Assembly (NCBI GenBank): GCA_022563535.1
Contig: JADFNE010000034.1
Span: forward strand, 1 to 46,804
Origin: Myxococcales bacterium
GTDB taxonomy: Bacteria; Myxococcota_A; UBA9160; UBA4427
DNA length: 46,804 nucleotides
Direction of reading: 5' to 3'
Within the stretch, counting starts at the first letter, position 1, and the number at the start of each line of letters is the position of its first letter. Both the position numbers and the translations under genes were made by a program. Below, piece after piece: positions 28,348-46,804 of the stretch. The notes below the pieces were generated by a model that was not told the DNA's origin, ran no database searches, and saw only the letters and a program-made list of their open reading frames with translations.

Positions 28348-28616
28348 TCAGTGCACGGCCGAAAAAAGCTGAACGGGGCCCCGGCCCCTAGCCTCGGCAC
28401 CTGCGTCCTTGCGATTAGGCCCCCCCAACGGGGTAGCGGCGGCCTCTGCCAGTACCCCCTATACTCCCGCCGCTTCCTGGAATCTCCTCTGCGAGGAGAC
28501 AGCGGAGCACCGGCCAACAGGTGTGAATAATGCACCTGCGCAGCACATGCGGGCCGGATCCATAATGGACGTAAATACAGAACATGACAGCCCGCTGATC
28601 GGGCAAGGAGATCTAC
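28348..28616 (+). other. Structured leader upstream of the aminotransferase gene
   Basis: This gap holds several small hairpins: a GC palindrome (28375-28388), CTCCTC/GAGGAG (28484-28498), CAGGTG/CACCTG (28518-28538) and GCCCG/CGGGC (28590-28604). The last directly precedes the AAGGAG ribosome site (28605-28610). I do not recognise a known riboswitch class. The first may end the PhyH transcript; the others may be leader structure or chance in GC-rich DNA. Confidence 0.35.
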
Positions 28617-30066: not shown

Positions 30067-32415
30067 ATGGAATCCCGCACATCGCTACCGGACTCCGACT
30101 CGAAACGCGGGAATTTTGCCGTTCACGCCGCTCTGCTCTTTGCCGTCGCACTGGTCTTTGCGCCCGTCGTCCTCCATCCAACGGATGTCATCTATAGCCC
30201 GCGCTCCGACGTACTGTCCCAGCATCACCCCTTTCGCACGCTTCAGGTCGAATCACTCCACGAGCGCGGACGGCCTCAGCTCTGGAACAGCACGTCCTTT
30301 GGCGGCATGCCGCTCGTCGGAGATCCCCAGGCCGGCATTTTCTATCCGATGAATTGGCTCCACGCGCTGGCGCCTTCCGATGGAAGTCACGCTTGGTTTG
30401 GCTGGAACATCATCCTGCATTTGATTCTCGGCGGCTGGGGCATGCTCGCGTGGTTGAAGGGGCACGGCTTCGACCTCTGGGCCCGACTCGCGGGCGCGTT
30501 CACCTTTTCATTCGCGGGAAAATGGCTGCTCCACATCGCGGTCCCAGGACACATCATCTTTCTTCCCCTGGCCTGGATCCCTTGGCAGTGTTTCTTCATC
30601 GATCGGATTCTGCGCCGCCCCGAACCCCGAGATTGTATTGGCTTTGCTCTCGTGACCGCGTTTGCAATCACGGGGTTTCATCCCCAGCTGCTTCTTTATT
30701 CTCAACTCCTGGTACTGGGCTATGGCCTGCGGGGCTGCATCCTTCTCTGGCGGAGTCGAGACACCCAGCGGGTAGATGCGTCGAGACTCAAGGCACCGCT
30801 GGTCCTTGTGGGTTCGGGCTGCCTCGCCCTCGTGCTCTGCGCAGCACACCTGCTTCCCATCGTCGACCACATGACCTACTACGTTCGCGGCGAGGGCATC
30901 CCCTACTCTGTCGCCGCAAACTACGCGATCACAAGGGAATTGCTCCAGAACCTGTTGCTGCCAGAGCAAGGCCCCCTGCCGAATTGGGAAGCGTCAATCT
31001 ACCTGGGCATCGCCGCCCTCGTGCTGGGTGGCTTTGCGCTGTGGCACCGCCCCCGACGTAACGCCCTGCTCTACTGTCTCGGTTCAGTGATTTTCTGTCT
31101 CTGGTACGCCACCGGGGGACCCGGTGGCCTGCATCGACTGATGCACGATTGGCTTCCAGGCTTTTCACTGTTTCGCTTTCCGAATCGCATGTTGCTCCTG
31201 ATCGGTTTTCCGCTCGCCTATTTGGTCGCGGCGGGAACCGAGACCCTGCTCCGGGCTCCGATCCGACGGGGCCTGGCGGCGGCGGCGATCACACCGGCGA
31301 TTGCGGCGCTGGTACTGGTTGCAATCGTCCAGACCCCAGCGGCCCTGTTCACCGCCCTCGCTCTTTGCCTCCCCGGCATTGCGCTTGCGATCCGTGCGTG
31401 GGGGCCCGCCGCCCTCGCCGCGCCACTGTTGGTCTTTGGACTCCTGATTGATCAAGCTCGCTATGTCATTCCGCTGATACACACCATGCCGATCGAGGAA
31501 GCCTTGGGAGACCACCCACTTGTTTCACGTTTGGCCGCGCCCCTCGGACACCAACGCGTGCTCTCGATCAATCGAAGAGTTCGCGCCGATCTGAGCCCCT
31601 TGCCCGTGACCTACATCACGCCTGCGGGAATCGAGGGCATGCGAGGCTTCAATCCCCTGGTTCCAGTCTCGACGCATCGACTGCTCCGCGAAGGGGTTGG
31701 GGGAATGGAACCCTCCCGGAAGACCTCGACCACCGTCGATTCCTTTCCCCTGCGGCACCGCACTCCGCTGGACCTCTTCAACATTCGCTGGGTAATCTCG
31801 GTGGCCCCGATCCAACTCGAAGGACTCGTGCTTCGCGATCGCTTCCCCGATCTATCCGTCTATCTCTTTGAGTTGCCAAGAGCGATGTTCGAATTCAACG
31901 AAGTGCTTCTTTATGAAAACACCCGGGCCCTCCCCCGCGCTGGCCTGATCCCGCGAGCGCGGCAGGTTGCGAATCAGGACCAGGCGCTCGAACAACTCAG
32001 GAGCGTTGACCCGCGACGCGAAGTGCTGATCGAAGACCAGGACTGGACGACAATCTACCCGGATCCCTTTCGCGCCATCGAGGTCGAGCACTCGGGCGAT
32101 CGAATCCGGCTCGACTTCGATGCCGGAGACGGGGGTTATCTGCTGATCAGCGAGTTGTGGTACCCGGGCTGGCGAGCGCGGGTCGACGGTCAGATTCGCG
32201 AACTCGAGCGCGCCAATGGCTTCTTCCTGGCTTTGGAGATGGGTTCGGGGCATCACGAGGTCATTCTCGAGTATTGGCCAGGCTCCCTCAGTGTCGGCCT
32301 GTGGATCAGCGCATTGGGTCTCGTGTTACTCCTCGCGCTAGCCGGGGCGGATCAGATGTTGCCCACTCGTCGCAAAGCCAGAGGAATCGCACCCGACAAA
32401 GTCGTTGCTCCATAG
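30067..32415 (+). CDS. YfhO-like large polytopic membrane protein (GT-C-type)
   Basis: With ATG 30067 the protein has 782 residues: many hydrophobic segments in the first two thirds, then a soluble, probably periplasmic C-terminal domain and a last membrane helix. The N-terminal loop has SPRSDVLSQHHPFR and GRPQLWNSTSFGGMPLVGDPQAGIFYPMNWL. This is the hallmark of YfhO-family proteins, where acidic residues after the first helix suggest lipid-phosphate sugar transfer. ISELWYPGWRARVDGQIREL near the end is also typical. YfhO proteins take part in lipoteichoic acid or other envelope glycosylation. A longer frame from 29950 would run through the terminator and is rejected. The gene overlaps the convergent sulfatase-fold gene by 64 bases. 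Confidence 0.8.
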   Translation: MESRTSLPDSDSKRGNFAVHAALLFAVALVFAPVVLHPTDVIYSPRSDVLSQHHPFRTLQVESLHERGRPQLWNSTSFGGMPLVGDPQAGIFYPMNWLHALAPSDGSHAWFGWNIILHLILGGWGMLAWLKGHGFDLWARLAGAFTFSFAGKWLLHIAVPGHIIFLPLAWIPWQCFFIDRILRRPEPRDCIGFALVTAFAITGFHPQLLLYSQLLVLGYGLRGCILLWRSRDTQRVDASRLKAPLVLVGSGCLALVLCAAHLLPIVDHMTYYVRGEGIPYSVAANYAITRELLQNLLLPEQGPLPNWEASIYLGIAALVLGGFALWHRPRRNALLYCLGSVIFCLWYATGGPGGLHRLMHDWLPGFSLFRFPNRMLLLIGFPLAYLVAAGTETLLRAPIRRGLAAAAITPAIAALVLVAIVQTPAALFTALALCLPGIALAIRAWGPAALAAPLLVFGLLIDQARYVIPLIHTMPIEEALGDHPLVSRLAAPLGHQRVLSINRRVRADLSPLPVTYITPAGIEGMRGFNPLVPVSTHRLLREGVGGMEPSRKTSTTVDSFPLRHRTPLDLFNIRWVISVAPIQLEGLVLRDRFPDLSVYLFELPRAMFEFNEVLLYENTRALPRAGLIPRARQVANQDQALEQLRSVDPRREVLIEDQDWTTIYPDPFRAIEVEHSGDRIRLDFDAGDGGYLLISELWYPGWRARVDGQIRELERANGFFLALEMGSGHHEVILEYWPGSLSVGLWISALGLVLLLALAGADQMLPTRRKARGIAPDKVVAP

Positions 32416-34100
32416 ACAGCCATGTTCTTGAAAGCGGCCCTCTCGGGTGTGAATAGATAGAAGTGCCTCGTCCTTCGCACTGACTCATCCCGCGACTCGG
32501 ACAAGTCCACTCCATCGCCTTCCGAATAAGGCAAATCAATGGCAGACAGCACTGTCGGATAGATATCTGCAAGTTGGGAATCGAACGCGGAATACCGCAG
32601 GGGTCCCTTCGCGCCGGGGAGCTTGACCATCAACAAAGCGCGAGCACGCGAAATCACCTGCTCCTTGTCCCAGTTCCGGAATGGAGGGGCTTGCACATTC
32701 GTCCCTTCCGGATACTCAAATCCCCCATCCTCAGTGATCATGCCCGCCCAACCAGCCCCGTGATCCCCATGAAAAACGATGACTGATTTGTCGTAGCGAT
32801 CCAGGCGCTTGAGAAGAGCGATGAGCTCTCGCAACAAGTTTCCCGTACAGATTGTTTGTTCGTAGTAGGCCCACTTGGCATTTTCATGCTTACCGCGAAG
32901 CTCGCACCCCGCGCCGATGACATACGGAGCATGAGGAATTAACACCTGCGCGAGCACGTATTCGCCATGGCTTGCACGTTCACCTTCGTCGTCGATGAGT
33001 TTGCGCAGCATCAATACGCCGGAAAAAGGTTCGATCCCCGCGGAAATGGTCAGGGGCACGATCTCCTTTTTGCCTCCGTCATCATTGACGAATGCCTGCA
33101 CTGCCGTGCCGAACTCCATACCGAGAAGCAGTGCATTGTTGGTGACGAAATTCGGCGCCAGCCTTGCGCTCCACAACCTGACGAAATCGACGATTTGTGG
33201 GTGTCGTACTTTCGTTTTCTGTCTCACCAGATCATGGGCATCATCGACTTGATCGAAGCCCGAGGTATCGATCGTGCTTTTCTTTCCGTAGAAACTCAAA
33301 TAGTAGCCGTCGCCCCGCAACGCGGCGGGCAGCCCGTCGGCCGCCCGATCCAACCATTTGTCGTAGCGCCCGCGGCGATAAATTGTGCCGGTCAAGTAGC
33401 TCGCTACAGAGGCACCCGTGAAGGGATAATTGGAAATATTGTTTTCGTACAATACGAATCCGTCGAATTCTTTTTCCCTCGCATCGGCCTTCAGATAGCG
33501 CCGGAAGTAATCCGTCTGCATCGCGTCCAGGTGAATATGATAAACGTTGGGGCGCTCACTCTGTTCATCAAGCAGCCTATCCACCCGCCCGATCCCCTGC
33601 GTACTTTGAATCGACAGCAAGAACAAGAGCAGACCCGACAACAATCCGATGACCGAAAGCTGGTCGGGCCAATTCGCTTCACGGGCCAGTGCTCGAAGGA
33701 AGACCGCCGTAATGACGACTGCGATGACGATTTCAATCACGGTGTATAGGAGGGGCTCGTCACTGCGCAGGGCTTGACCATCCAATACACCCAGCTGTAC
33801 CGGGGCGAAGACATCGCTTGCAAGAATGATCAGGCCCACCAGGAACATGCAATTGGCGACCACTGGACCCTTGCTACCCAGAAACGGATAGAGCGCAGCC
33901 GCAATGGCGACGGTCAACAACCATGCACCGCCGGACAACATGAGGGGGAGCATGTCACCGCCCCACTCACCGCGGTTGAAGTAGTACAACATGCCCGGAA
34001 CGACGAGGAACACCGCCGTGGGCAGCATGGAAACTCGACTCAGGTAGCCGAACAGTGTCATCAATGGGCGCGACGAATCTCTCGTGATCGAATCCTTCAT
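32352..34100 (-). CDS. Membrane-anchored sulfatase/alkaline-phosphatase-fold protein
   Basis: The 582-residue protein has about five hydrophobic helices (18-170) and then an extracytoplasmic catalytic domain. NVYHIHLDAMQTDYF gives the first metal Asp (D192), NYPFTGASVASYLTG (224-238) holds the Thr/Ser expected to be the nucleophile, and VIVFHGDHG (440-448) gives the second metal D-H pair. The layout is that of LtaS/EptA-like transferases and membrane sulfatases, which move phospho-alcohol groups between lipids and glycans or hydrolyse esters. No C-x-P-x-R sulfatase maturation motif is visible, which favours a phosphotransferase. Its ATG directly follows the TAG of the cytochrome c-bearing dehydrogenase-like gene, so the two are coupled. 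Confidence 0.78.
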   Translation of the reverse strand: MKDSITRDSSRPLMTLFGYLSRVSMLPTAVFLVVPGMLYYFNRGEWGGDMLPLMLSGGAWLLTVAIAAALYPFLGSKGPVVANCMFLVGLIILASDVFAPVQLGVLDGQALRSDEPLLYTVIEIVIAVVITAVFLRALAREANWPDQLSVIGLLSGLLLFLLSIQSTQGIGRVDRLLDEQSERPNVYHIHLDAMQTDYFRRYLKADAREKEFDGFVLYENNISNYPFTGASVASYLTGTIYRRGRYDKWLDRAADGLPAALRGDGYYLSFYGKKSTIDTSGFDQVDDAHDLVRQKTKVRHPQIVDFVRLWSARLAPNFVTNNALLLGMEFGTAVQAFVNDDGGKKEIVPLTISAGIEPFSGVLMLRKLIDDEGERASHGEYVLAQVLIPHAPYVIGAGCELRGKHENAKWAYYEQTICTGNLLRELIALLKRLDRYDKSVIVFHGDHGAGWAGMITEDGGFEYPEGTNVQAPPFRNWDKEQVISRARALLMVKLPGAKGPLRYSAFDSQLADIYPTVLSAIDLPYSEGDGVDLSESRDESVRRTRHFYLFTPERAAFKNMAVYGATTLSGAIPLALRRVGNI

Positions 34101-35717
34101 CTATTCAGGCTCGACGATCGCAGAAGAGTGATAGGCCTCCAGGAGATAGGCGGCGAGCATTTCGGCCTCTCTGCGATTCACGCCCAGGGCCGGCATGGTC
34201 GCGTTCTTGGAGTCGAAGCGCGGCTCCATGACGTGCTCGGTGATCCAACGACGAATGCGCTCGTCGCCGTCCGCAGCCAGCACCGACTTGCGCGCGTCTC
34301 GAAATCCGTCGTCGTCGGGGCTCCAACTGGCGAGCTTCTGGGTGTACTCAGCGGTTCCGATCCTTGCGTGGAGCCGCGGGATCAGATCCTTCGGATCCAG
34401 GGCAGGCGCTCGCTTGCCGCCCCTGCCCCGGAAACTGTGGCAGCCGAGGCAGCGGCGTTGCTTGATGACAGCGAGGCCCGTGCGCGGAGCCCCCAAGATT
34501 TCCGGTGCCGGGTTCTTCGGGTCGTAGCGCATCCGATAGATCGACACCGGGCCGGGTTTGCCGTCGCTGAAGAGCGGCGCAAAGAAGATTTCATCTTTCC
34601 CGACTGCCAGCGCGTTGAGGCACTGTTGGTCGGTTCCGATGTACTCGACCACCGTTCGCTCGGGGGTCGTCACCCGGGTACGGTCGGGGTCGAATCCGAG
34701 CCAGGTAACAGCCGGGTACTCACCCTCAATCAGGATCTCGGGAGGCCCCGTGCGCGCGAGCAAGAAGCCCTCTCCGAGTCCCGCAGGCGCGAAGGAAGTA
34801 TTGCGCTCGAGGTAACCCATCTGTCCCATCCCGCGTGCGGGGGAGAGGACCGCGAGTGCGTTCAATCCGATCGATGCATCGGATCCGTCATAGAGGTAGT
34901 CCATCCCCTTGTGTGCTTCGACGATCCGGTCGACCCCTGGACCGTTGTCCCCCACGAAGATACGCCCGTCAATTTCGACCATCCCAAACGGGTTGCGGAG
35001 CCCGAGGGTGTGGATCAATGACGCAGCGCCCTTGTCGTCGTGAAATGGATTTTCCGGATGCGGCTTACCGTCGAGCGTCAGGCACAGCACTTTGCCGAAG
35101 AGCGAGCGTTTATTGCGGGAACGCCTGCTCATCTCACCGTCTCCGACGCCAACGTAGAGCTTGTCTCCATCTACGAGGCACGCTCCGATCTGATGCCCGT
35201 TCGGATTGCGGGTGAAATTCGATCTCCCGCTTCGCAGGGCGTCAGTGAACATCATGCTGCCCGTCGGCTTCAGCGAAAACGTATGGGGCTTGGTTTCGAA
35301 GCGAATGATGTTGTTGTATCGGCGCTTCGACTTTGCCTGGTAGGCGAAGGTCGCGAAGATATAGCCAGTTGCAGGGTCGAGGGTGATTCCTGTCAGTCCC
35401 ATGGCGCCTGCGGCTTTCGGAAGATCGACCGGCATCTCGAGTTCGAAGAAGTCCTTCGCGAAATCATGCACCGATCCGTCGTTGGTGACGACGCGAATGG
35501 TTCCTGCAAGTTCGGTCACGAAGAGGAAGGGGTCCTCCGGCTCTGGTCCCGGCTCGGGAACGATCGCGATCATGACGGGCAGGACGAAGTCGGTCGCAAA
35601 AACCTCGAGCGAAATACCTGGACGAACAGCCCACTCCGTGCGACTGTCCGCGAGGGCCATCGCCGAACTCAGTGCAAGCACGAAAGCTACGATCGCGGTC
35701 GCGAGACGACGCTTCAT
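34101..35717 (-). CDS. Sorbosone-dehydrogenase-like beta-propeller with C-terminal cytochrome c
   Basis: The 538-residue protein has a signal peptide (1-24), then a glucose/sorbosone dehydrogenase-like propeller. Landmarks are LEVFATDFVLPVMIAIVPEP, GLTGITLDPATGYIFATFAY, LFGKVLCLTLDGKPHPENPF and LGLRNPFGMVEIDGRIFVGDNGP. CLGCH (423-427) binds a heme c, with a Met in NATMPAL as likely sixth ligand. Such proteins oxidise sugars or alcohols in the periplasm with PQQ or similar and pass electrons to heme. ATG 35717 follows CAGGAG by eight bases. It lies 49 bases after the methyltransferase and directly before the sulfatase-fold gene, in a four-gene minus-strand unit with the GT2. Confidence 0.82.
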   Translation of the reverse strand: MKRRLATAIVAFVLALSSAMALADSRTEWAVRPGISLEVFATDFVLPVMIAIVPEPGPEPEDPFLFVTELAGTIRVVTNDGSVHDFAKDFFELEMPVDLPKAAGAMGLTGITLDPATGYIFATFAYQAKSKRRYNNIIRFETKPHTFSLKPTGSMMFTDALRSGRSNFTRNPNGHQIGACLVDGDKLYVGVGDGEMSRRSRNKRSLFGKVLCLTLDGKPHPENPFHDDKGAASLIHTLGLRNPFGMVEIDGRIFVGDNGPGVDRIVEAHKGMDYLYDGSDASIGLNALAVLSPARGMGQMGYLERNTSFAPAGLGEGFLLARTGPPEILIEGEYPAVTWLGFDPDRTRVTTPERTVVEYIGTDQQCLNALAVGKDEIFFAPLFSDGKPGPVSIYRMRYDPKNPAPEILGAPRTGLAVIKQRRCLGCHSFRGRGGKRAPALDPKDLIPRLHARIGTAEYTQKLASWSPDDDGFRDARKSVLAADGDERIRRWITEHVMEPRFDSKNATMPALGVNRREAEMLAAYLLEAYHSSAIVEPE

Positions 35718-35766
35718 GCGGGTATCTCCTGAGTTCGCAGGACTGTCTGAACGGATGACGCTCACT

Positions 35767-36675
35767 CTATAGAGCCAACTCGGCACGGTCAAGATCGAAC
35801 AGAGGGCCCGGCGAGGAGACTGGGCGTCTTGCGATCACACGAAGCGATCCGCTGGTTACGCGAACCATTCGGTTGCGGAGCAACGCGCTCGATTCGATTC
35901 GTGGGATCAACTTGCCGATTGGATGTATCAGTTCGCGGATGCGATGCATCAAGAACGGCAGCGCGTAATATTGGTACGCGGGCTCTACGCTGACAACCTC
36001 GAGGCCGGCAGTCTCGAGCAGGCGCCTGATGGTTGAAGGCGAGTAATAGGATACGTGCTCGGGCAGTTTGAATGAGACCCAGCGTCTACCCGAGATTCGT
36101 GCCAGCGCGCTCTCAATGTTCGGTGTAACGAGTGCAATCACTCCGCCCTCATTCAGGCGGTCGACAAGATCGGCCATGAAAACGTGCGGCTCGGGGATAT
36201 GTTCGATCACGTGGGATGAGAAGATGAGATCGAAGCGCCGGTCTCGCAGCTCGGCGACATCATTGATCGCGCCATGAAAGACGCGGCCTGGCAGGATCTG
36301 TGCGGCCCGCTCCACTGCCTCGCGTGAAAAGTCAATGCCGATCGCGTCGTAGCCCGCTGCCAAGGCTCCATCAACGAACCAACCAAAGCCACAGCCGACA
36401 TCGAGCGCCGAAGCCCCGGCCGCTAGATAAGGGGATAGTGAGCGGAGGTCCTCGGCGAAAGTGGCTCGGTACTCACGCTCCTGGTCAGCGTAATCCGAAT
36501 AGCCGATCGCGCCCGTTCCTGCGAAATAACCGTCAGCGTATAAGTTGATTGTCGTCTCGGTCGAAGGCAGGGGATCGAGCTGGCTCAGTCCGCAGGCCTG
36601 GCAAGTGCGGATCTCGTATTCACCGAACGAGTGGCGATGAGAAAGCACCTCCTCCCCGCACAACATGCAACTCAA
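35767..36675 (-). CDS. Zinc-ribbon SAM methyltransferase
   Basis: The 302-residue protein begins with C3-x-x-C6 and C25-x-x-C28 (SCMLCGE, RTCQACGL), a zinc ribbon common in sugar C-methyltransferase-like proteins. The SAM loop ALDVGCGFGWF (90-100), DAIGIDFSREAVE and FDLIFSSHVIEHIPEP follow, a Methyltransf_11/23 core. The TTG at 36675 is favoured over ATG 36666 because the later start would remove C3 and break the first C-x-x-C. The TTG overlaps the GT2 stop in TTGA, giving translational coupling. It probably methylates a sugar or lipid-linked intermediate made by this cluster. Confidence 0.82.
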   Translation of the reverse strand: MSCMLCGEEVLSHRHSFGEYEIRTCQACGLSQLDPLPSTETTINLYADGYFAGTGAIGYSDYADQEREYRATFAEDLRSLSPYLAAGASALDVGCGFGWFVDGALAAGYDAIGIDFSREAVERAAQILPGRVFHGAINDVAELRDRRFDLIFSSHVIEHIPEPHVFMADLVDRLNEGGVIALVTPNIESALARISGRRWVSFKLPEHVSYYSPSTIRRLLETAGLEVVSVEPAYQYYALPFLMHRIRELIHPIGKLIPRIESSALLRNRMVRVTSGSLRVIARRPVSSPGPLFDLDRAELAL

Positions 36676-37550
36676 GACTGGGAGCCCTCTTGTTTTTGTG
36701 AGTCCTGCATCTGGTAGTGCCCCAGATAGTAGTGGAATGGGAGGCGCAGAACGGAGAGCAGCATGAGTGGGGCATCCCGCATGAGCGATACGTTCGAATT
36801 TTCATCGCGCACGAGCTTCACGGGTACCTTTTTCATGTCGAAGTTGTTCTTGAAAGCGAGGTAGACGAGTTCGACGTCGAACGCAAAACCGTCGATACGG
36901 CTCTGTGAAAAAAGGTAGTGGGCCGCGTCCGCACGAAACCCCTTGAACCCACACTGCGTATCGCGTATTCCGGTGACGACGATCCGACTCACGAACTCGG
37001 AAAAAATTGCGCTGGCCACGCGCCGGATGAAGGAGGGCCGCAGGATACTCTGGGCCTCAGCAAGTGATCGCGTCCCCAGGCAGAGATCGAATTCTTTGCG
37101 ATCCAGCGCGTCGAGCATGATGGACATTGCCGAAAGCGCATAGGGGATGTCCGCATCGATGAAAAAAATGAATTCTCCCCGCGCAGCCTGAATTCCGGTT
37201 CTGACCGCCGCACCCTTTCCGCAATTTAGAGCGTGGGTGAGAACCTTTACACGGCCGTCGAAGCGAGCAGCAATCTCGGAGGTTCCGTCGTCGGATCCGT
37301 CGTCGACGAGGATGACCTCATACGGCGCAGCTTCGGGAATTTCCCGATCAAGGAAATCAAATAGCGTGCGCAGCGATGAATCCAGGTAGGCCGAACCGTT
37401 CAGACAGGGCAGGACGACTGTCGTTCGACAACCCGATTCAGGCTGGTGTGCGGTTGCGGCATTGGGAGCGCTGGAATCGACGGGCACCAACAAAGCCTGC
37501 GGGTCGCTATCCAGTTTGTCAAATTGCGAGGGGGTTGAAGAACCGACCAT
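36672..37550 (-). CDS. Family 2 glycosyltransferase, polyprenyl-phosphate sugar synthase-like
   Basis: The 292-residue protein has a GT-A fold: TVVLPCLNGSAYLDSSL opens the domain, ILVDDGSDDGT (80-90) binds the nucleotide, IDADIP (131-136) is the metal D-x-D site, and DTQCGFKGFRAD matches the conserved Q-C-G-F-K motif of dolichyl-phosphate glucosyltransferases. There is no clear membrane helix pair at the end. It probably makes a polyprenyl-phosphate monosaccharide in the cytoplasm, the donor type used by GT-C enzymes nearby. ATG 37550 has GGGAG six bases upstream. It leads the minus-strand unit and diverges from a GT-C gene across 60 bases. Confidence 0.87.
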   Translation of the reverse strand: MVGSSTPSQFDKLDSDPQALLVPVDSSAPNAATAHQPESGCRTTVVLPCLNGSAYLDSSLRTLFDFLDREIPEAAPYEVILVDDGSDDGTSEIAARFDGRVKVLTHALNCGKGAAVRTGIQAARGEFIFFIDADIPYALSAMSIMLDALDRKEFDLCLGTRSLAEAQSILRPSFIRRVASAIFSEFVSRIVVTGIRDTQCGFKGFRADAAHYLFSQSRIDGFAFDVELVYLAFKNNFDMKKVPVKLVRDENSNVSLMRDAPLMLLSVLRLPFHYYLGHYQMQDSQKQEGSQS

Positions 37551-37610
37551 TGGACTCCCGAAAGTTGCTAGCGGCCAGCAGCTCAATCGAGCGTGGGCTA
37601 GCCTAGCCCG

Positions 37611-39419: not shown

Positions 39420-39427
39420 GCAATGCC

Positions 39428-41614
39428 CTACTGTGGTTCCATCGCTGTCGCGGCTCCGGCCCGAAGCTGCTCGATTCGCTCGAGGGTTTTCGCGGCTTCC
39501 GGTAAATGGAACCATGCTGCACGGGCGGCATAAATGCTGGCCCGCTCGAGTTCGCCTCGATCGGCGAGGATCCCCGCGAGATCGTTCGCCGCGGTAGCTG
39601 CGTGCGGGTGGGCGTCGAGCAAGCGCTCGAGACGCTGGGCGGCCTCGTCGGGGTCGGTCTCTCGCACGAGTGCGACCGCCGCGAATGCGGTTGTCGCATC
39701 CTCTGGGTCGGCGGCGAGGGCGCGGTCATAGAGGCTCAGTGCCCGGGGCGTATCCCCCGCCGCCGTGGCGAGGACGGCCAGACCCTCGAGGGCTCGCCAG
39801 TTCGCAGCGTCCAGTTCCAGCGCCCGCTCGTAGCTCGCGCGTGCCTGATCGGGCTGTGCCGCGGCGTAGAGCGCGCGGCCGTGTAGTTCGTGGAAGATCG
39901 AATCGTCGGGATAAGCGGCCAGCGCCACTTCGATTTGGCCCATGATCTTTTTGTGTTGGCCGAGCATCTCGAGTTGTTCGATGAGAACCCGGAACGCAAT
40001 CGAGTTTGCTGAATCTGTCAGATCGAGACCCGCCGCTTCGACAACCCCCACCGCTTGTTCGGTGGCGCCAGCTTCGGCCCAAATCGACGCCCGCTCGGCG
40101 ACGGCAACGGCGGCCTGACCGGGTATCTTGCTCAAACGCGCAAGCTTTTTATCGACGAGCTTGGATAGAGCAAGAGCGTGGGCGCTGCGGATGTTTACGA
40201 GCAATGCTTCAGGATCTTGATAATGCGCCGGAGTCTGCAGGTATTTGCCGGAGACCTGAAGGGCCCCCTTGAGACTACCTTGGGATGCGTAGAGCTTCGC
40301 CAGTGCGAGTCCGGCAGCGCTGCTGCCGGGAGAGGCTCGAAACGACTCGCGATAGTGGGAGATCGCTTGCTTGAACTCGCCGACGCCCTCGGCGGCCTGC
40401 CCGGCCAGGAATCGTCCAACTGCGTTCTCCGGCCACAATTCAATCCCGGTCTCGAAGGCCGCAAGCGCGTCCCGGGAGTTGCCCTCGGCGAGGAAGATGC
40501 GGCCAAGAATCAGGCTCTGAAACTTGGGCTGTTCCAGTTGGTTGGCAACTTCGCGAGCTTTCTCGAACTGCTCGGCCTGCACGAGGGTGTCGGCGTAGGC
40601 GAAACTGAGGCGCGGCGATCCCGGGCTGAGGGACAGCGCGTTTTCGAAAGCATCGATCGCCTTGTCAAAGCGTCCGCGCTGCACGTAGTCGTCAGCAACG
40701 GCGAACCAAGCCTCGGTCGAATGTTGCGTCTCGGCCTTTTCGAGCAGGAGTTGTTCCTTTGTCCCCAAAATACCGAGGGCGTCCATCCGCCGTGTAAGGG
40801 TTGTGCGGAAGGGGCCGGTGCTCAACTCGTTCGAGGCGCGCTCGAGGACCTCGGTGGCGCGCTCAGATTTTTGGATCCGATCGTAGAAGGCAACGATCTC
40901 CGTGACGGCGGCGGCCTCGGTGGGGAATTGTTTGGCGCAATCGGCGTAGTGCTTCTCGGCCTTTTCCATTTCGCCGCGCTCGGCCGTGAACGAGGCGCGG
41001 GCGACACAGAGTCTTGCGAGCATCCGGCTTGCGATGTCATTTTCGGAGGCGTCGAAGCTCGCTTGGGCGGCATCGAGGGATGCACCGGCCTCTTCAATTC
41101 GATGCAGCGCAATCAGCGCCGTCACTCGAGTTACGAGCACCGCGAGATTGGTAGGGTGCAGCTCGAGCACTCGCTCGATGTTCGCGAGCGATACCTCGAT
41201 TTCGCGTGTCGATCGGTGGGCATCCGCCAACAGTGCCGAGGCGTTCAGGTTGTTGGGCTCGATCTCCAGGACCTTTTCGATCTCCTCGACCGCATCGAGC
41301 GAGGTTCCACTCGCGAGGATTGCCCGGGTCATCAGCATGCCGGCCTCGACCGCGTAATCGGGAAACTCGGCGGCCTTGCGAAGCGGCCACACGGCGAGTC
41401 CGGCATTGCCCGTCCGCAGCAGCGCCTTGCCGAGCAGCAGACTTGCTTCGGTATGCGAAGGATCTTCGCGGACGATCTGCCGCAGCAAACCGATGGTCTG
41501 CTCGAAATGGCCAGCGTCCTGCAGTTTTCGAACTTCCGGCATGGGGTCGCTCGGACCGCACGCAAGCGCGAGCAGCAGCAGTAGTTGGAGGCTGGCGCGC
41601 ACCACTGGGGACAT
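39428..41614 (-). CDS. Large TPR-repeat lipoprotein
   Basis: The 728-residue protein has a lipoprotein signal: hydrophobic LQLLLLLALAC with the lipobox Cys at 19 and G-P after it. The remainder is almost wholly tetratricopeptide repeats of about 34 residues (for example TEASLLLGKALLRTGNAGLA and KAIDAFENALSLSPGSPRL), over 15 by eye. It would be anchored in the outer or inner membrane and act as a scaffold. Its size and make-up recall the PrsT lipoprotein of PEP-CTERM/exosortase systems, and a PEP-CTERM protein is 24 kb away, but that is only suggestive. It diverges from a GT-C gene across a 139-base spacer rich in ACA repeats. Confidence 0.83.
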   Translation of the reverse strand: MSPVVRASLQLLLLLALACGPSDPMPEVRKLQDAGHFEQTIGLLRQIVREDPSHTEASLLLGKALLRTGNAGLAVWPLRKAAEFPDYAVEAGMLMTRAILASGTSLDAVEEIEKVLEIEPNNLNASALLADAHRSTREIEVSLANIERVLELHPTNLAVLVTRVTALIALHRIEEAGASLDAAQASFDASENDIASRMLARLCVARASFTAERGEMEKAEKHYADCAKQFPTEAAAVTEIVAFYDRIQKSERATEVLERASNELSTGPFRTTLTRRMDALGILGTKEQLLLEKAETQHSTEAWFAVADDYVQRGRFDKAIDAFENALSLSPGSPRLSFAYADTLVQAEQFEKAREVANQLEQPKFQSLILGRIFLAEGNSRDALAAFETGIELWPENAVGRFLAGQAAEGVGEFKQAISHYRESFRASPGSSAAGLALAKLYASQGSLKGALQVSGKYLQTPAHYQDPEALLVNIRSAHALALSKLVDKKLARLSKIPGQAAVAVAERASIWAEAGATEQAVGVVEAAGLDLTDSANSIAFRVLIEQLEMLGQHKKIMGQIEVALAAYPDDSIFHELHGRALYAAAQPDQARASYERALELDAANWRALEGLAVLATAAGDTPRALSLYDRALAADPEDATTAFAAVALVRETDPDEAAQRLERLLDAHPHAATAANDLAGILADRGELERASIYAARAAWFHLPEAAKTLERIEQLRAGAATAMEPQ

Positions 41615-41656
41615 GTTGATTCGTTCTCCCTGCTTTCATGCTGCCACACCAACATC

Positions 41657-41732
41657 TACAACAACACCTATAACAAAACTTACAACAACACCATCAGCCT
41701 CTGGAACATTCGTGACCGGGTGATTCCGGTCA
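41657..41732. repeat. ACA-rich direct repeat and palindrome between divergent genes
   Basis: TACAACAACACC occurs at 41657-41668 and again at 41681-41692, 24 bases apart start to start, within a run poor in G. Just after it TGACCGG (41713-41719) and CCGGTCA (41726-41732) form a 7-base inverted repeat ending 21 bases before ATG 41754. The palindrome could be an operator; the repeat's role is unknown. Confidence 0.45.
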
Positions 41733-41753
41733 TGGGTCGGGTAGACTGAGTCG

Positions 41754-43253
41754 ATGGACCCCGCGACAGAGACGCTTCTCCGCTTCGCTACCAGCCTGAT
41801 CTGCCTTCTCCTCATCGCGGTGAGCCTTCGCGCAAAGTTCCCCCCGTCCGACTGGCGTGCAAAAACCATCGCGGTCACGGCCGCCGCCCTCGCGCTGCTG
41901 ACCTTCTACAATTTCGGCGCGGTTCGGCACTACCAGGGAGACGGCTTCGTCAACTACCACGAGCACTTTCACTATTACCTCGGCGCGAAGTACTTCTCCG
42001 AACTCGGCTACGACGGTCTCTACGCAGCTTCTCTTGCGGCGCATCGAGAGAGTCTGCCGAACACAGCCCTTCCGAAGTGGGTCAGGGATCTCCGCACCAA
42101 CACATTGGTATTGAGCGAAGACCACATGGTGTACGCGGACAGCATTGCGGCGCGCTTTACGCCGGAACGCTGGCAGCAATTCGTGAGTGACCGCAATCGC
42201 ATTCACCGCTTCGCCCCAGCCAAAGTCAATAGAGCAATCCACAAGGATCACGGCTTCAACCCGACCCCGACCTGGGTGTCGGTCGCCCGCTTGATCACCG
42301 CGCTCGTGACACCGGGACCGATGGGGTCCGGGATCCTCTGCTTGCTCGACATCGTCCTCGCGTCGCTGATGTTTGTCCTGATCGGCAGAACCTATGGTTC
42401 GCGTGTCCTGTGCGCGAGTTTGGTTGTTTTTGGTCTGGGCTTCGGATGGCGTTACGTCTATGTCGGCGCGCTGATGCGCCTGGACTGGCTCGTCGCTGTG
42501 GTTTCAGCTTTCTGCATGCTCGAACGCAAGCGGCCAGCGCTCGCCGGGATGATGCTCGGCTACGCCACCGCGACCAGACTCTTTCCGGCACTCCTGCTCG
42601 CCGGCCCCGCCCTGCTCGCGCTGAAGGCCTGGCGGCGACGAGAGCGACCCGAGTGGCCGCTTCAGCTCTTCGGAGCATTCGCAGCGACCGTTGCGCTCGG
42701 TCTGCTCGCCGGCACCTTGTCGGGCCGTGGCTTCGCAGGCTGGTCTGAATTCGTGGACAACATGCGGATGCACGTAGCCCTCGTATCGCCCATGACCTTT
42801 GACCTGAACACGGCTCTGCACATCGATCCCCTGGCGCTCACCCGCGCTCTGGTCACGCTCACCCCGATGCCCGGGTCGAGCCTTCCGGCCATGGTCGAGC
42901 GACACGGGCTCGTTCTACCTGCACTCAGGCTCGGATTCATCGTTCTCTTTTGTCTTGCGGCGTGGCGCGCCAGCCTGGTCGAATCCGCCGTGCTGGGACT
43001 TGCGCTGATCTTCGCGTTGACTCCGGTTACCTCGTATTACTGGGTCGTACTTCTCGCGCTGCCACTGCTACCGGGACGACTCGCACCGTTGGTGCCCGTC
43101 ATATTTGCGGCGTTCCTCTACGGCCACGAGGTCATGAGCGGCCCTTTCAGACTGGTGGACGAACGTCGCTACGCGATCTCTTTGTGCCTGGCGCTCTTCT
43201 TCGCGCTGTGGCTTGGCCGACGAGCCAGCCAGGCTTTCTGGCCGCGGCAGTAG
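41754..43253 (+). CDS. GT87/DUF2029-like polytopic membrane protein
   Basis: The 499-residue protein has ten or more hydrophobic segments and a large first loop (about 55-175) with FVNYHEHFHYYLGAKYFSELGYDGLY, a pattern seen in alpha-mannosyltransferase-like and other GT-C proteins. RLDWLVAVVSAFCMLERKRP, then MMLGYATATRLFPALLL, matches the g-x-x-x-g-x-a-x-x-x-k/R-x-x-P motif of the DUF2029 group. The exact sugar and acceptor are unknown. A second GT-C-like gene starts 96 bases downstream on the same strand, so both may be one transcript. No ribosome site stronger than GGGT-rich sequence precedes the ATG. Confidence 0.7.
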   Translation: MDPATETLLRFATSLICLLLIAVSLRAKFPPSDWRAKTIAVTAAALALLTFYNFGAVRHYQGDGFVNYHEHFHYYLGAKYFSELGYDGLYAASLAAHRESLPNTALPKWVRDLRTNTLVLSEDHMVYADSIAARFTPERWQQFVSDRNRIHRFAPAKVNRAIHKDHGFNPTPTWVSVARLITALVTPGPMGSGILCLLDIVLASLMFVLIGRTYGSRVLCASLVVFGLGFGWRYVYVGALMRLDWLVAVVSAFCMLERKRPALAGMMLGYATATRLFPALLLAGPALLALKAWRRRERPEWPLQLFGAFAATVALGLLAGTLSGRGFAGWSEFVDNMRMHVALVSPMTFDLNTALHIDPLALTRALVTLTPMPGSSLPAMVERHGLVLPALRLGFIVLFCLAAWRASLVESAVLGLALIFALTPVTSYYWVVLLALPLLPGRLAPLVPVIFAAFLYGHEVMSGPFRLVDERRYAISLCLALFFALWLGRRASQAFWPRQ

Positions 43254-43349
43254 AGGCCTCGCTGACAATGGCGTCAAGTTGAACCATGCACTGGGTCGAT
43301 GTAGCGTTTGGCGCTTCATGACAACCCAGCGCAGCGAAAGAAGCGAGCC

Positions 43350-45068
43350 ATGGAGTCGTCGAACCATTCAGGCTCGGGCCCCCTTGGAGCGCGCTCAGAT
43401 CATGATGAGGTCGCGCCCGAGGTGATGCGCTTTCGGTATTGGCTCGCAGGAGTGCTCGCCGCCGCCGCTGGTGTCCGGGGCGTACTTCTATTCCAGACCC
43501 TCAGTCGTCCGGAACTCCGGGACATGCGACTACTCGACTCGCGGGTCTATGACCAGATGGCCGCGCAGATCACTGCGGGCGACCTGCTCGCGGGGAGCGA
43601 GGCCTTCGGCCTCGGCCCCCTCTACGCCTACTTTGTCGCCCTGCTCCGCTGGATCGGCCCAGACGGACCGGGCTGCATCTACGCCGTGCAACAATTGCTC
43701 GGTCTCGCCAGCGTTGCACTGGTCGCGCTAATCGCCAGGCGCTGTTGCGGCCCGGGCGCGGGGATCGCGGCGGCGGCGTTGATCGCGTTCTACGGCGCCA
43801 TGGGGATGTTCGAGGTCAAGCTCATGAGTTCGACCTTTGCGACATTCTTGTGTGTTGCGAGCCTTGCCCTGCTGTTGTTTGCTCACGATCGACGTTGGAC
43901 AGTCGGTGCAGTAATTCCAGGTCTGTTGCTCGGTGCGGCGTGTCTGACTCGACCCAATACTCTGCTCTTTGCTCCACTCGCCATCGGTTGGTGGCTATGG
44001 GCTCAGCGCGAGCACACCCCGCGCAACACCAATGCCGGGCAGACCCGTGTGGCGCTCGCGGGGGCACTCGCCCTGTGCTGCGGGATCGTTCTGGCCATCG
44101 CCCCCGCCACCCTGCGCAACTACTGGGTGACCGGCGAGATTACGCTGATCTCGTCCCAGGCCGGGGTTACATTTTTTGATGGCAACAACCCCAAGGCCCG
44201 CGGGCTCTACGCTCGGGCTGACGTGATCAGCGGCAACCCACTCACCCAGGCCGCGGATCAGCGGCAGGTCGCCGAGCAGGCGGCCGGCCGTTCCCTCACC
44301 CAGGCCGGCGTCAGTCGCTACTGGTTCGGGCGCGGTCTCGCGCACCTCACGGACGATCCCATTCGCGCCGTCGGCCTGATCGCCCTCAAGCTGCGCTTCT
44401 GGCTGTCGAGCGATGAGGTTCCCGTCGACTACTCCCTGCCCGCGGAGCGCGAGCTGACGCCAGCGCTCTGGTTCGCACCCGTTCCCTTCGGGTTGATCCT
44501 GGCGTTCGCCTTCTTGGGACTTCGCAGCCCGCGCTGGCGCGAGCCGCCCCAGGTCCTTCTGTATCTATTCACCCTCGCCAATCTGTCGTCGGTTCTGATC
44601 TTTTACTTTGCGTCCCGCTACCGCCTGCCCGCGGTCCCGGTCCTGGCTGTGCTAGCGGGCTGCGGCGCCATGGAGATCGTTGCGCTCGTGCGGCGTTCGC
44701 GCCTCGAGTTGATCGCCTGGCTGCTTCCGGCGGTTCTGATCGCAGCACTGTCGCTCCACTCGTGGACCGACGACCTGCGCCAATCGGCGGCGTCTCAGTT
44801 CTTCAACTACGGAAACATCTATCGCCGGCAGCAAGAGCCCGCGCTAGCGATCGCGAGCTACAAGCGGGCTCTGCCTGGACTCGGCCACATGGCGAAGCTC
44901 CACATCAACATGGCGGGTGCATACAGTTCGCTGGACAAGCACGAGGATGCGGTCCGCCACCTCGAACTCGCGCTCAATATCCGACCCAAAGCGCCAGGGG
45001 TGCGACGCTCACTTCAAGCCGAGCGGGCGAAGTTAGATCTGCCCCCGGCTGGTAGACAAACTCGTTGA
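43350..45068 (+). CDS. GT39-like membrane glycosyltransferase with C-terminal TPR segment
   Basis: With ATG 43350 the protein has 572 residues; a later ATG (43424) is possible and an upstream TTG at 43308 is less likely. The first loop has LLDSRVYDQMAAQITAGDLL, where the acidic D-S-x-x-Y-D pattern matches the PMT_2/GT39 group. LTRPNTLLFAPLAIGWWLW and ATLRNYWVTGEITLISSQAG, then FFDGNNP, are typical later landmarks. After about ten membrane segments the last 90 residues form two or three TPR-like helices (FNYGNIYRRQQEPALAIASY, HINMAGAYSSLDKHEDAVRH). Fused TPRs of this kind occur in some bacterial GT-C proteins and may dock partners. The gene overlaps the convergent neighbour by 36 bases. Confidence 0.75.
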   Translation: MESSNHSGSGPLGARSDHDEVAPEVMRFRYWLAGVLAAAAGVRGVLLFQTLSRPELRDMRLLDSRVYDQMAAQITAGDLLAGSEAFGLGPLYAYFVALLRWIGPDGPGCIYAVQQLLGLASVALVALIARRCCGPGAGIAAAALIAFYGAMGMFEVKLMSSTFATFLCVASLALLLFAHDRRWTVGAVIPGLLLGAACLTRPNTLLFAPLAIGWWLWAQREHTPRNTNAGQTRVALAGALALCCGIVLAIAPATLRNYWVTGEITLISSQAGVTFFDGNNPKARGLYARADVISGNPLTQAADQRQVAEQAAGRSLTQAGVSRYWFGRGLAHLTDDPIRAVGLIALKLRFWLSSDEVPVDYSLPAERELTPALWFAPVPFGLILAFAFLGLRSPRWREPPQVLLYLFTLANLSSVLIFYFASRYRLPAVPVLAVLAGCGAMEIVALVRRSRLELIAWLLPAVLIAALSLHSWTDDLRQSAASQFFNYGNIYRRQQEPALAIASYKRALPGLGHMAKLHINMAGAYSSLDKHEDAVRHLELALNIRPKAPGVRRSLQAERAKLDLPPAGRQTR

Positions 45069-46454
45069 GCCGCAATTCAGCCAGTTACCATGCAGGTGAA
45101 GGAGCAAGAGCGCGAATATCCCCAGCAAGAAATGATGGTAGTTGCAAAACGACACCTTCGAGAATAGAAAGAAGAATGCGAATAGCGAAGCCGTGGCAAT
45201 GAGCGGATCGCCCCGCCCCCAGCTGATCCAAACACATAACAAGCCACCCAATACAGCTGTTATCAACGTGGGGCCGCTACCCCGTGCGCTGATCAGTCCT
45301 TCACGCGCCCAGTGCACGGTCAGACTGAACGAATCCATGCGGGGCTTCACATTGAGAAGATTCCCCACGGTAGAATCGTAAATTGCCTGGGCGTCGAGAA
45401 TGATGAATGGGATAAAGAGGAGCCCTGCGGTCACTGTTGCACCGAAGATCAGGGTCTTTCGCTGCTGCCAGGTGGTGTCGCGCAGTACGGCCAGCCCGAG
45501 GAAGACCGAGAAGACGACGCCATACTGCTTTACCGCCGGCGCGAGCACGAGCAGGACCCCGAGCAGAAGGAACCGTCGCTCGCGAAAAGCCACATAGCTG
45601 GCGATCAACATGAAGATCAATGCGGCATCGACCCAGCTCTGCTCCAGCACAAAGAATGTCATGGGCAGACTCATGAACACCATGGGCAGCGCGAATTGTC
45701 GCGAGGATCCCAGCAAACTGCGCGAAATTCGAACGAGCAGCGCCAGCGACAGAATTGAAGTCAGCACGTATTCCCAGCGAATCTCTCCGGTGAGTCGCCA
45801 CGACAGTGCATTCCCATACAGCGTGCCCGGCCAATACGGAAACACCGGCGTATAGCTGTAGCGGCCGCGGTAGATATCCGGGTAGATGTGGCTGTAGGGA
45901 TTGGTTCCATTCCAGAGAAGCTCCGACGCTTCTTGACCCATTGTCCAGACGTCGATGTGTGGCGTTGGCGAACCCAAGATCACCGCGCCCGAGCCCAGCA
46001 AAAAGATGACGAATAGCGCAACCACCGGCGCCAGTGGCAGATTGAGCGGGCCGCCCCGGCGCCATGCTGCCCACAGCATTGCCGCAGCCGTGATGGCGAG
46101 GGACAGCAAAATGCCGTTGCTCAATAGCTGGCGAGCAAGATCATGCTTGAAATACATCACACCAGGGTTTTTGAACTGCAACCATAGTTGCATCAGGATC
46201 CCGAGCGAGATCACGACGATGGCCGGAAGACCGAGGGGCAGGCCCCGGCGGCAGACCCGCATACCGATGACAGTAATCAGGAAGAGTCCCACGCAGCCCG
46301 CGTAGTAGACGACCCAGGGGTGGTAGCGACCGCGCGTGGCGAACAGAAACCAGCTGGCTGCAAAGAAGCTGCCCCAGGCGATCACGGATGCCAGGTGATC
46401 GCGCACCCCAGCCTCGAGGATCGTGTCAGGTTCAGCGGAAGCGTCGGTGTCCAT
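45033..46454 (-). CDS. Polytopic membrane protein, GT-C-like
   Basis: The 473-residue protein has roughly eleven hydrophobic segments. The largest loop (about 165-215) has PHIDVWTMGQEASELLWNGT, N-P-Y, then a Tyr-rich YRGRYSYTPVFPYWPG. The D-V-W-x-x-x-x-x-x-x-x-x-L-x-x-G-x-x-P-Y phrase is common in DUF2029/GT87 and related GT-C proteins, where the Asp is thought to be catalytic. Acceptor and sugar are unknown. Its 3' end overlaps the GT39-like gene's end by 36 bases on the other strand. A partial gene of similar type lies 60 bases upstream on the same strand. Confidence 0.68.
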   Translation of the reverse strand: MDTDASAEPDTILEAGVRDHLASVIAWGSFFAASWFLFATRGRYHPWVVYYAGCVGLFLITVIGMRVCRRGLPLGLPAIVVISLGILMQLWLQFKNPGVMYFKHDLARQLLSNGILLSLAITAAAMLWAAWRRGGPLNLPLAPVVALFVIFLLGSGAVILGSPTPHIDVWTMGQEASELLWNGTNPYSHIYPDIYRGRYSYTPVFPYWPGTLYGNALSWRLTGEIRWEYVLTSILSLALLVRISRSLLGSSRQFALPMVFMSLPMTFFVLEQSWVDAALIFMLIASYVAFRERRFLLLGVLLVLAPAVKQYGVVFSVFLGLAVLRDTTWQQRKTLIFGATVTAGLLFIPFIILDAQAIYDSTVGNLLNVKPRMDSFSLTVHWAREGLISARGSGPTLITAVLGGLLCVWISWGRGDPLIATASLFAFFFLFSKVSFCNYHHFLLGIFALLLLHLHGNWLNCGSTSLSTSRGQI

Positions 46455-46514
46455 TGCTAGCCATCGCTAGCACGCCACCAGAAAGCTGGCCACTGCACCC
46501 TTCGTACTTTCAGG

Positions 46515-46804
46515 CTACCGCTCTTGGCCGGGGGGAGGACTTTCTACCCTCGGTACTCGCTCGAGCAGCTCGATACCAAAGCGGCGGCTGACCAGGGGTT
46601 TGGCGCCGAGGGTTACCGCGCTCACATAGTTGCTCTGGATCCAGGCCCAGACGAGTTTGCCGTAGTCGCGCCCGAAAAATAGCATTCCGTATTCGCGCGT
46701 GGGTCGGTGCACGATGGCGATCCAGTCGGGCGGCGTCGCCCGCAGCGCGTCAAGAATTTGATCCTCGCCGAAGACCGCGAACTCGGGTGGCACGAAGTTC
46801 ATGT
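46515..46804 (-). CDS. C-terminal part of a probable GT-C-like membrane protein (runs off window)
   Basis: About 95 residues are visible. The ATG at 46802 is at the window edge and is likely internal. The text PPDWIAIVHRPTREYGMLFF, then GRDYGKLVWAWIQSNY, resembles the hydrophilic periplasmic C-terminus of long bacterial GT-C proteins, which often contain H-R/K-D/P-x-x-E-Y-G and a W-I/V-x-x-N-Y phrase. If so, the membrane part lies beyond the window. It ends 60 bases before the start of the next minus-strand GT-C-like gene, consistent with one operon. No stronger claim can be made from this fragment. Confidence 0.5.
   Translation of the reverse strand, partial: MNFVPPEFAVFGEDQILDALRATPPDWIAIVHRPTREYGMLFFGRDYGKLVWAWIQSNYVSAVTLGAKPLVSRRFGIELLERVPRVESPPPGQER

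Follow-up and report, generated by a model that had tools for sequence, protein, structure and literature searches.

The genes at positions 30067-46454 are best explained, at a probability that we put at roughly 0.55, as a lineage-specific patchwork for glycan decoration at the periplasmic face of the inner membrane, arranged around a minus-strand run at 37586-32352. They lie at the end of the window (the whole 46,804-nucleotide stretch of DNA analysed, from an uncultured Myxococcota-type bacterium), where the contig stops at position 46804. What is observed comprises the protein families, the tight packing of the run (genes g5-g4-g3-g2), the clustering and the first-loop acids of the membrane enzymes; the enzymatic steps we infer. 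The enzymes of the region probably add and edit sugars at the outer face of the inner membrane. A preliminary description had suggested that the genes could build a novel decorated glycan or glycolipid there; periplasmic-face glycosylation fits the enzyme types, but nothing shows one ten-gene pathway or a novel product. Because every component belongs to a known kind, and because close relatives carry these components scattered, we regard the whole group as fairly ordinary.

Membrane glycosyltransferases of the region

Five complete GT-C-type membrane glycosyltransferases (g1, g6, g8, g9 and g10) are encoded between positions 30067 and 46454, together with a GT2 glycosyltransferase, a methyltransferase, a membrane sulfatase-fold protein, a sugar-dehydrogenase/cytochrome c fusion and a TPR protein. 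The count follows from scores over Pfam cut-offs for g1, g9 and g10, a profile match for g6 and a predicted fold for g8, the last two being without a Pfam or NCBIfam match above cut-off. Five or six such proteins of different subtypes had been proposed. The diversity is borne out: YfhO, PMT_2 and GT87 families are matched above cut-off, g6 is PMT/ArnT-like and g8 has a PimE-like fold. As to the number, five are complete and the sixth is only a possible one, a 95-residue open frame cut by the contig end (46518..46802, minus strand). This tail, possibly GT-C-like from its appearance, matched no Pfam family and gave two plasmid hits, both insignificant.

The YfhO-type protein g1 (30067..32415, plus strand) scores 40.8 bits against PF09586 (cut-off 28.5), the match spanning only residues 716-787 of 821, in the C-terminal part. 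Alignment favours an ATG start at 30067 over a TTG at 29950. Its best relative, in genome G005, shares 50% identity and the remaining ones at most about 38%; the g1 profile matched nothing in the PDB by sequence. Two proteins resemble the ArnT/PMT_2 group: g9 (43308..45068, plus strand), with 37.6 bits against PF13231 (cut-off 26.1), and g6 (37611..39419, plus strand), whose profile matches ArnT (PDB 5ezm, E 1.4e-4). They differ from that group in that g6 itself has no Pfam or NCBIfam match over cut-off and g9 carries C-terminal TPRs, recognised by TPR families; four of the seven members of the g6 alignment match PMT_2. The g6 and g9 profiles are related to each other (E 1e-7), and other profile comparisons gave low probabilities (g6-g8 2.6%, g8-g10 7.1%, g6-g1 18.8%). 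The GT87-type protein g10 (45033..46454, minus strand) reaches 36.2 bits against PF09594 (cut-off 25).

Alignment of the catalytic acidic loop, proposed earlier as a check on the GT-C assignments, came out in their favour: a first-loop acid is kept in all five proteins. D48 of g1 is invariant in six of six rows, the DYG...DE motif of g6 is present in all six rows covering that stretch, D72 and D77 of g9 are invariant (5/5 rows) and D168 is common to g10 and its one relative.

The claim of a dense group of GT-C-like genes also held. Large polytopic open reading frames (400 aa or more, with eight or more hydrophobic segments) number five in the region, against a mean of 0.45 and a maximum of four in 40 other stretches of the same genome, none of which contained five or more. 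This result argues against the possibility that we are dealing with a chance neighbourhood in a GT-C-rich genome, composed of independent genes without a common pathway. Such an origin is favoured by the abundance of PMT_2 matches, of which this genome (4.6 Mb) has 35 and the three genus-mates have 31 to 43, and by the mixed strands of g6 to g10.

The minus-strand run g5-g4-g3-g2

The genes g5, g4, g3 and g2 are tightly packed on the minus strand (37586-32352): g5 overlaps g4 by 4 bases, 49 bases lie between g4 and g3, and g2 follows g3 directly. This packing is a further argument against a chance neighbourhood. The protein families first read from these genes were all recovered. The proposed lipid-phosphate GT2, g5 (36672..37586), appears to be of the polyprenyl/dolichyl-phosphate sugar synthase type, with 88.1 bits against PF00535 and similarity to a DPM synthase (PDB 5mlz, E 4.6e-9); its best equivalog model, PpgS, reached 67 bits, far under the cut-off of 370. 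The proposed zinc-ribbon methyltransferase, g4 (35767..36675), is a class I enzyme (PF13489, E 1.4e-29, above cut-off), and the cysteines of its N-terminal CxxC...CxxC are seen directly in the sequence.

The next gene, g3 (34101..35717), encodes a glucose/sorbosone dehydrogenase-type protein (PF07995, 78.1 bits, cut-off 25) ending in a CxxCH (heme c) motif, which appears as CLGCH in all four alignment rows. Its start is placed at ATG 35717 by alignment, TTG 35792 being possible too. With both the GSDH domain and CxxCH, g3 is by sequence a putative PQQ-type sugar dehydrogenase with heme c, in keeping with the sugar-dehydrogenase-like cytochrome described earlier. The domain resembles soluble PQQ-type aldose dehydrogenases (2ism, E 3.2e-8; 3das; 2g8s), from which g3 differs in its additional C-terminal CxxCH domain and in sharing its run with genes for a GT2, a methyltransferase and a sulfatase-fold protein. 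A search of plasmids returned 16 records for g3, none with 80% query coverage.

The sulfatase fold proposed for g2 (32352..34100) was likewise found (PF00884, 30.7 bits, cut-off 25), in a membrane protein with six hydrophobic segments, N-terminal ones among them. The type I sulfatase signature C/S-x-P-x-R is missing: in alignment with 6ust, g2 has PFTGASVASYLTG where type I sulfatases have CxPxR, with threonine in the place of the nucleophile. LtaS-like sulfatase-fold phosphotransferases use a threonine nucleophile. As in LtaS, membrane helices precede the sulfatase-fold domain of g2 and Thr replaces the sulfatase Cys, but g2 does not match LtaS significantly by sequence (4uoo, E 0.71). Neither promoter-like sites (2 versus 3.6 in shuffles) nor terminator-like sites (17 versus 14.1, sd 3.7) were in excess, and a PADLOC defence-system scan of six proteins of the region gave no match.

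In the mechanism that we propose, g5 would charge polyprenyl phosphate with a sugar, a flippase would turn the polyprenyl-linked sugar over, and at least one GT-C enzyme would pass the sugar to a lipid-linked polymer, a lipid or a protein; g1 and g6, on either side of the run, are the likeliest candidates. The product may be modified by g4, as the putative methylase of a sugar, and by g2, which could add or remove a phosphate-type substituent through a presumed Thr nucleophile. A possible role of g3 is the oxidation of an exposed sugar, with the electrons going to its own heme c. Two further GT-C genes, g8 and g9, probably serve the envelope in general and lie here by happenstance.

This scheme can be compared with multi-component transmembrane glycosylation systems such as CsbB-GtcA-YfhO and GtrB-GtrA-Gtr (PMC8035078, PMC11127046). 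Like these systems, the region combines a GT2, putatively of the polyprenyl-phosphate-sugar type, with GT-C proteins, one of them YfhO-type. It differs from them in having five GT-C genes, in its additional methyltransferase, sulfatase-fold and dehydrogenase genes, and in residing in a genome without a GtrA-type flippase match (PF04138, no matches in this genome; the same search matched 5 of 30 genomes).

Distribution in related genomes

In a presence survey of 97 genomes (our own included), matches were found to g6 in eight, to g2 in nine, to g10 in two and to near-full-length g3 in four. All four genes were absent from three same-genus genomes, and their hits shared no contig except our own. 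For g1, g8 and g9 relatives abound, most of them located elsewhere; g4, g5 and g7 were compared only with collected neighbourhoods of relatives. A second region gene occurred in 6 of 34 wider neighbourhoods, each at 31% identity or less. Partial by-eye reading of the hit lists gave same-contig pairs of g1 with g8 (about 300 bases apart, G065:C127) and, within about 10 kb, of g1 with g2 (G033:C52), with g9 (G015:C57, G004:C35) and with the TPR part of g9 (G071:C56). We reject a conserved cluster, the genes being absent or scattered in close relatives, and on this point the synteny check suggested in the preliminary description went against the grouping. A literature search, limited in reach, returned nothing on the region, nor anything that dealt with GT-C/YfhO loci of Myxococcota.

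Mixed loci of similar type do exist in relatives, and these speak for a patchwork. Locus L144 contains YfhO, a GT2-methyltransferase fusion, a second GT2, PMT_2, two sulfatases and a deacetylase; L044 combines YfhO and PMT_2 with a sulfatase confirmed by Pfam; in L279, YfhO-like and sulfatase-fold parts share a single open frame of 1289 codons. Against a patchwork speak the lack of a conserved cluster, the weakness of the sulfatase association by a stricter test, the missing GtrA match and the setting of the closest relatives of g9, which three genus-mates carry within a conserved non-glycan block.

The sulfatase association was assessed in 29 YfhO loci of our own choosing (9 collected previously and 20 taken by score and contig size), a subset of the YfhO hits, and all p values are uncorrected. 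With a home-made profile, sulfatase-fold genes were found in 13/29 YfhO loci versus 6/40 stretches of our own genome (p 0.007), or in 11/27 without the two seed loci (p 0.019). A stricter motif test, which misses the L044 sulfatase, gave 6/29 versus 4/40 (p 0.18). Because the home-made profiles were built from stop-to-stop frames, some of their hits are imprecise, with L134 and L294 showing only partial matches. The association of YfhO with sulfatase-fold genes is not robust, being significant by one test and not by the stricter one. For GT2 (8/29 versus 4/40) and methyltransferase genes (9/29 versus 5/40) there was a trend only (p about 0.06 each, 0.08 without seed loci), and PMT_2 showed no association; the home-made PMT profile was too insensitive for use.

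The scattering of the genes across relatives and the fragile sulfatase-YfhO association add to the case for a chance neighbourhood, while the occurrence of such mixed loci in G033 and G005 counts against it, as do the density of polytopic proteins and the packed run; we consider it a serious but somewhat unlikely explanation. The data show a Myxococcota-type lineage with a big stock of GT-C genes, whose loci are reshuffled even within one genus.

Further readings and the g8 family

The region might also be a fragment of a more extensive exopolysaccharide or PEP-CTERM/XrtA-type locus, with export genes past the contig end and g7 as a PrsT-type TPR protein. The contig does stop inside the region, and PrsT (TIGR02917, E 2.7e-49) is the best NCBIfam model of g7 (39428..41614, minus strand). 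The score of 167.8 bits is, however, about half of the cut-off (312.2), so g7 was rejected as PrsT, and a Pfam scan of 31 window proteins recognised no Wzx, Wzy, O-antigen ligase or exosortase family, in agreement with the absence of the first three reported earlier. We regard such a locus as improbable. The "giant TPR lipoprotein" of the preliminary description keeps its TPR repeats, confirmed by Pfam families, but g7, at 728 aa, is not giant, and its presumed lipobox, ALAC, is one that we take to be non-canonical; it is possibly a lipoprotein.

A bolder reading holds that g5-g4-g3-g2 build and then redox-edit a methylated, phosphate-substituted periplasmic glycan, the heme c dehydrogenase oxidising exposed sugars and sending electrons to respiration, with several GT-C proteins, the g8 family included, supplying the sugars. 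It is a long shot, kept because the g3-type gene is rare (4 of 377 genomes of the phylum, our own included) and its three relatives sit close to glycan-type or sulfatase genes. If true, it would represent a new kind of glycan editing, and for the same features of occurrence we flag this dehydrogenase/cytochrome protein.

Least probable, and in our view very doubtful, is a glycolipid pathway in which g8 and g10 extend a lipid-bound glycan in a PimE-like manner: g8 matches PimE best in fold and g10 exceeds the GT87 cut-off, but a common fold says nothing on substrate (PIG-U, to our knowledge not a known transferase, has the same fold) and the window showed no PIM-type partner genes.

The protein g8 (41754..43253, plus strand) is, according to its structure model (pLDDT 91.9), a member of the GT-C fold. 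The model aligns with PimE over 351 residues (Z 20.9, 12% identity), followed by ALG3 (Z 15.9), GPI mannosyltransferase I (14.8), PIG-U (14.6) and ALG6 (13.1). Compared with PimE and the GT87 family (PMC12041525), g8 shares the fold and an acid opening the first outer helix, and g10 the family score; unlike them, g8 has no Pfam match at E 0.001 (GT87 PF09594 included) and no NCBIfam family. Its profile found nothing in the PDB by sequence, and GT87 matches within its family are weak (9 of 70 members, best E 8.6e-7). Another region gene lies near g8 in 2 of 80 loci by tblastn, which missed the YfhO neighbour in G065:C127. After g8 itself, the largest neighbour sets cover 16, 10, 9, 9 and 8 of the 80 loci, many of them short and with rough ORF calls, and g8 accordingly has no general partner. 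Residue 70 is acidic in 69 of 70 rows of the family and D165 is present in all 70; with 280 loci confirmed among species-representative genomes, a widespread unnamed family now carries a structure-based label.

Gene content and clustering of the region

The region at window positions 30067-46454 lies on a contig that is represented in full by the window, in a genome of 4.63 Mb (147 contigs; completeness given as 97.88%), and carries ten complete genes, g1 to g10. The preliminary description had counted five or six GT-C-like membrane proteins, and five complete ones were found, encoded by g1 (30067-32415, + strand), g6 (37611-39419, +), g8 (41754-43253, +), g9 (43308-45068, +) and g10 (45033-46454, -), together with a possible sixth interrupted by the contig end. 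The rest of its gene list was correct in substance, except for the TPR protein g7 (39428-41614, -), which at 728 residues is not giant and whose presumed lipobox is non-canonical; the observation itself is confirmed. A count of ORFs encoding 400 residues or more and having 8 or more hydrophobic segments gave five for the region; across 40 length-matched stretches taken from the genome's other contigs, the mean was 0.45 and the highest count 4. The clustering of GT-C-type genes is real, but it stands against a high genome background: matches to PMT_2 alone number 35 in this genome, and 43, 36 and 31 in three genomes of the same genus.

Upstream of the region (21688-29921, +) are acyl-CoA synthetase-type, ABC transporter, GcvT-type, PhyH dioxygenase and class III aminotransferase genes, and no glycan-type family was detected among the genes scanned there. 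In addition, matches to Pfam Flagellin_N, Flagellin_C and His_Phos_1 define a flagellin gene at 2821-3900 (-), whose N-terminal part is in a different frame and whose C-terminal part reads through, without a frame change, to a histidine phosphatase domain. Either the gene has decayed or the assembly has joined separate sequences here.

GT-C proteins and the g8 family

Three of the five GT-C proteins exceeded Pfam cut-offs (YfhO, g1; PMT_2, g9; GT87, g10), and neither g6 nor g8 had a family match of its own. The g6 profile finds ArnT (E 1.4e-4), and PMT_2 is matched by four of the seven members of the g6 alignment. The preliminary description had named the lack of a catalytic acidic loop as grounds for refutation; the alignments of all five proteins contain conserved first-loop acids, which we infer to be the catalytic ones. 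DYG...DE is kept in all six g6 rows covering that stretch (the seventh is truncated), D48 of g1 is present in 6/6 rows, D72 and D77 of g9 in 5/5, and D168 of g10 in 2/2. The g8 alignment has 70 rows: the window sequence and 69 of 80 fetched loci, namely those from which a protein of 430 to 620 residues could be read. An acid occupies position 70 in 69 of these rows, and D165 is invariant.

The predicted structure of g8 (mean pLDDT 91.9) matched PimE best in Foldseek (E 7.0e-4 and 7.6e-4), followed by ALG9 (0.003 and 0.007) and then by oligosaccharyltransferase and PIG-U, both above E 0.07. Re-examination of that match list with VIA-align gave a Z of 20.9 for PimE (3.9 A over 351), with lower values for ALG3 (15.9), a GPI mannosyltransferase I (14.8), PIG-U (14.6), ALG6 (13.1) and ArnT (11.1). 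Since PIG-U has the same fold yet no known transferase role, the GT-C fold of g8 is no proof of activity. Residue 70 sits near the start of helix 68-79; D58 of PimE lies at the tip of the first juxtamembrane helix (PMC12041525), and the two residues are comparable in sequence order rather than in a structural superposition.

Members of the g8 family are found widely: 280 loci were confirmed, 80 of them were retained, and record titles place them in Myxococcota, Acidobacteriota, Deltaproteobacteria, Planctomycetota and other taxa. Pfam GT87 is matched weakly by 9 of the 70 members, and NCBIfam by none at E 0.001. This unnamed family with a PimE fold is a modest lead. Eight g8 relatives from the Archangium/Myxococcus group, as judged by title (L189, L190, L192, L195, L203, L215, L218 and L222), share a conserved multi-family neighbourhood, which from the look of the sequences we take to include parts of the Sec translocase.

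Distribution in relatives and comparison with known systems

A search of 97 genomes (own included) with seven of the region genes gave matches for g1 in 47 genomes, g2 in 9, g3 in 27 (4 near full length), g6 in 8, g8 in 41, g9 in 60 and g10 in 2. In all three same-genus genomes g2, g6, g10 and a near-full-length g3 were absent. Using tblastn with all ten genes, a second region gene was detected in 6 of 34 wider neighbourhoods (L043, L140, L142, L144, L145 and L148), at no more than 31% identity. Around g8 relatives, tblastn detected another region gene in 2 of 80 loci. HMMER found a YfhO relative about 300 bases from a g8 relative (G065:C127), which tblastn had missed. The g9 relatives of three genus-mates (GT-C with TPR; L138, L139 and L140) lie within one conserved block of non-glycan type, whose further genes include an amidohydrolase and an amino-acid permease and, in two of these genomes, an acyl-CoA ligase; the block has no gene in common with the window except g9.

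The region genes are thus absent or dispersed in close relatives, and such scattering is what the preliminary description had named as refuting its proposal that they could build a novel decorated glycan or glycolipid on the periplasmic face. That proposal is supported in part. Known multi-component glycosylation systems combine a GT2 acting on polyprenyl phosphate with a flippase and an enzyme of the GT-C class (PMC8035078, PMC11127046); the region supplies a GT-C enzyme and a putative GT2 of this kind. No match to a GtrA-type flippase was found in the assembly of this genome; other types (e.g. the MATE type) work in some such systems (PMC11127046). The region is best read, with moderate confidence, as a patchwork specific to its lineage.

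The g5-g4-g3-g2 run and YfhO loci

The polyprenyl-phosphate-type GT2 gene g5 (36672-37586), the methyltransferase gene g4 (35767-36675), g3 (GSDH domain and CxxCH; 34101-35717) and the membrane sulfatase-fold gene g2 (32352-34100) are all on the - strand. The first two share 4 bases, a gap of 49 bases follows between g4 and g3 (given an ATG start for g3), and g3 and g2 abut. In g2, a weak alignment to 6ust places Thr at the position of the sulfatase catalytic Cys, with the Arg missing. This Thr may indicate phospho-transfer, as in LtaS, to which g2 gave an insignificant match (E 0.71). Several further proteins with a sulfatase fold in this lineage (L044, L052, L144, L246, L247, L287 and others) also have Thr in place of the Cys of CxPxR, which is therefore no special trait of g2; proteins of this type seem to be common in the lineage.

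Among 377 genomes sampled from the phylum, four carry a near-full-length g3, this genome being one of them, and the CxxCH motif is kept in all four rows. One relative (L141) has a pair of GT2 genes at a distance of about 6 kb, another (L142) an adjoining GT2 and a sugar-type C-methyltransferase 2 kb off, and the third (L143) a sulfatase about 4 kb away. Given the background in control stretches (GT2 in 4/40, methyltransferase in 5/40, sulfatase-fold in 6/40) and the differing partners, these three places are suggestive of an association with glycan-type or sulfatase genes, not proof of it. This rare dehydrogenase/cytochrome protein is a modest lead.

Individual loci point to a recurrence of this type of gene content. 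The closest YfhO relative of g1 (50% identity; L044) is accompanied by PMT_2 and a sulfatase. Another YfhO locus (L144) contains a GT2 fused to a methyltransferase, one further GT2, a polysaccharide deacetylase, two sulfatases and three proteins of PMT_2 type, of which one exceeds the cut-off. In L279 (7411-11277, G005:C160, - strand), from the same genome as L044, a single open frame of 1289 codons begins with a YfhO-like part (residues 35-807) and continues with a sulfatase-fold part; this is either a genuine fusion or a pair of genes lying end to end. The counts, made with home-made profiles in 29 chosen YfhO loci, mostly of 20 kb, against 40 own-genome stretches (p uncorrected), are less clear. 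Sulfatase-fold genes were present in 13/29 loci and 6/40 stretches (one-sided p 0.007), in 11/27 loci without the two seed loci (p 0.019), and in 1/20 stretches of relatives, these being mostly shorter. The values were 8/29 versus 4/40 for GT2 and 9/29 versus 5/40 for methyltransferases (both p 0.06, or 0.08 without seed loci), and 3/29 versus 2/40 for PMT. A stricter, profile-free motif test of the sulfatase fold, by which the L044 sulfatase goes undetected, gave 6/29 versus 4/40 (p 0.18). The association of YfhO with sulfatase-fold genes is suggestive only, and the motif test slightly lowers confidence in the patchwork reading. Two further loci, L269 (3693-6869, contig C31 of the genome studied here) and L301 (2275-5502), encode proteins longer than 1000 residues that combine 10 to 11 hydrophobic segments with a pair of sulfatase-fold motifs.
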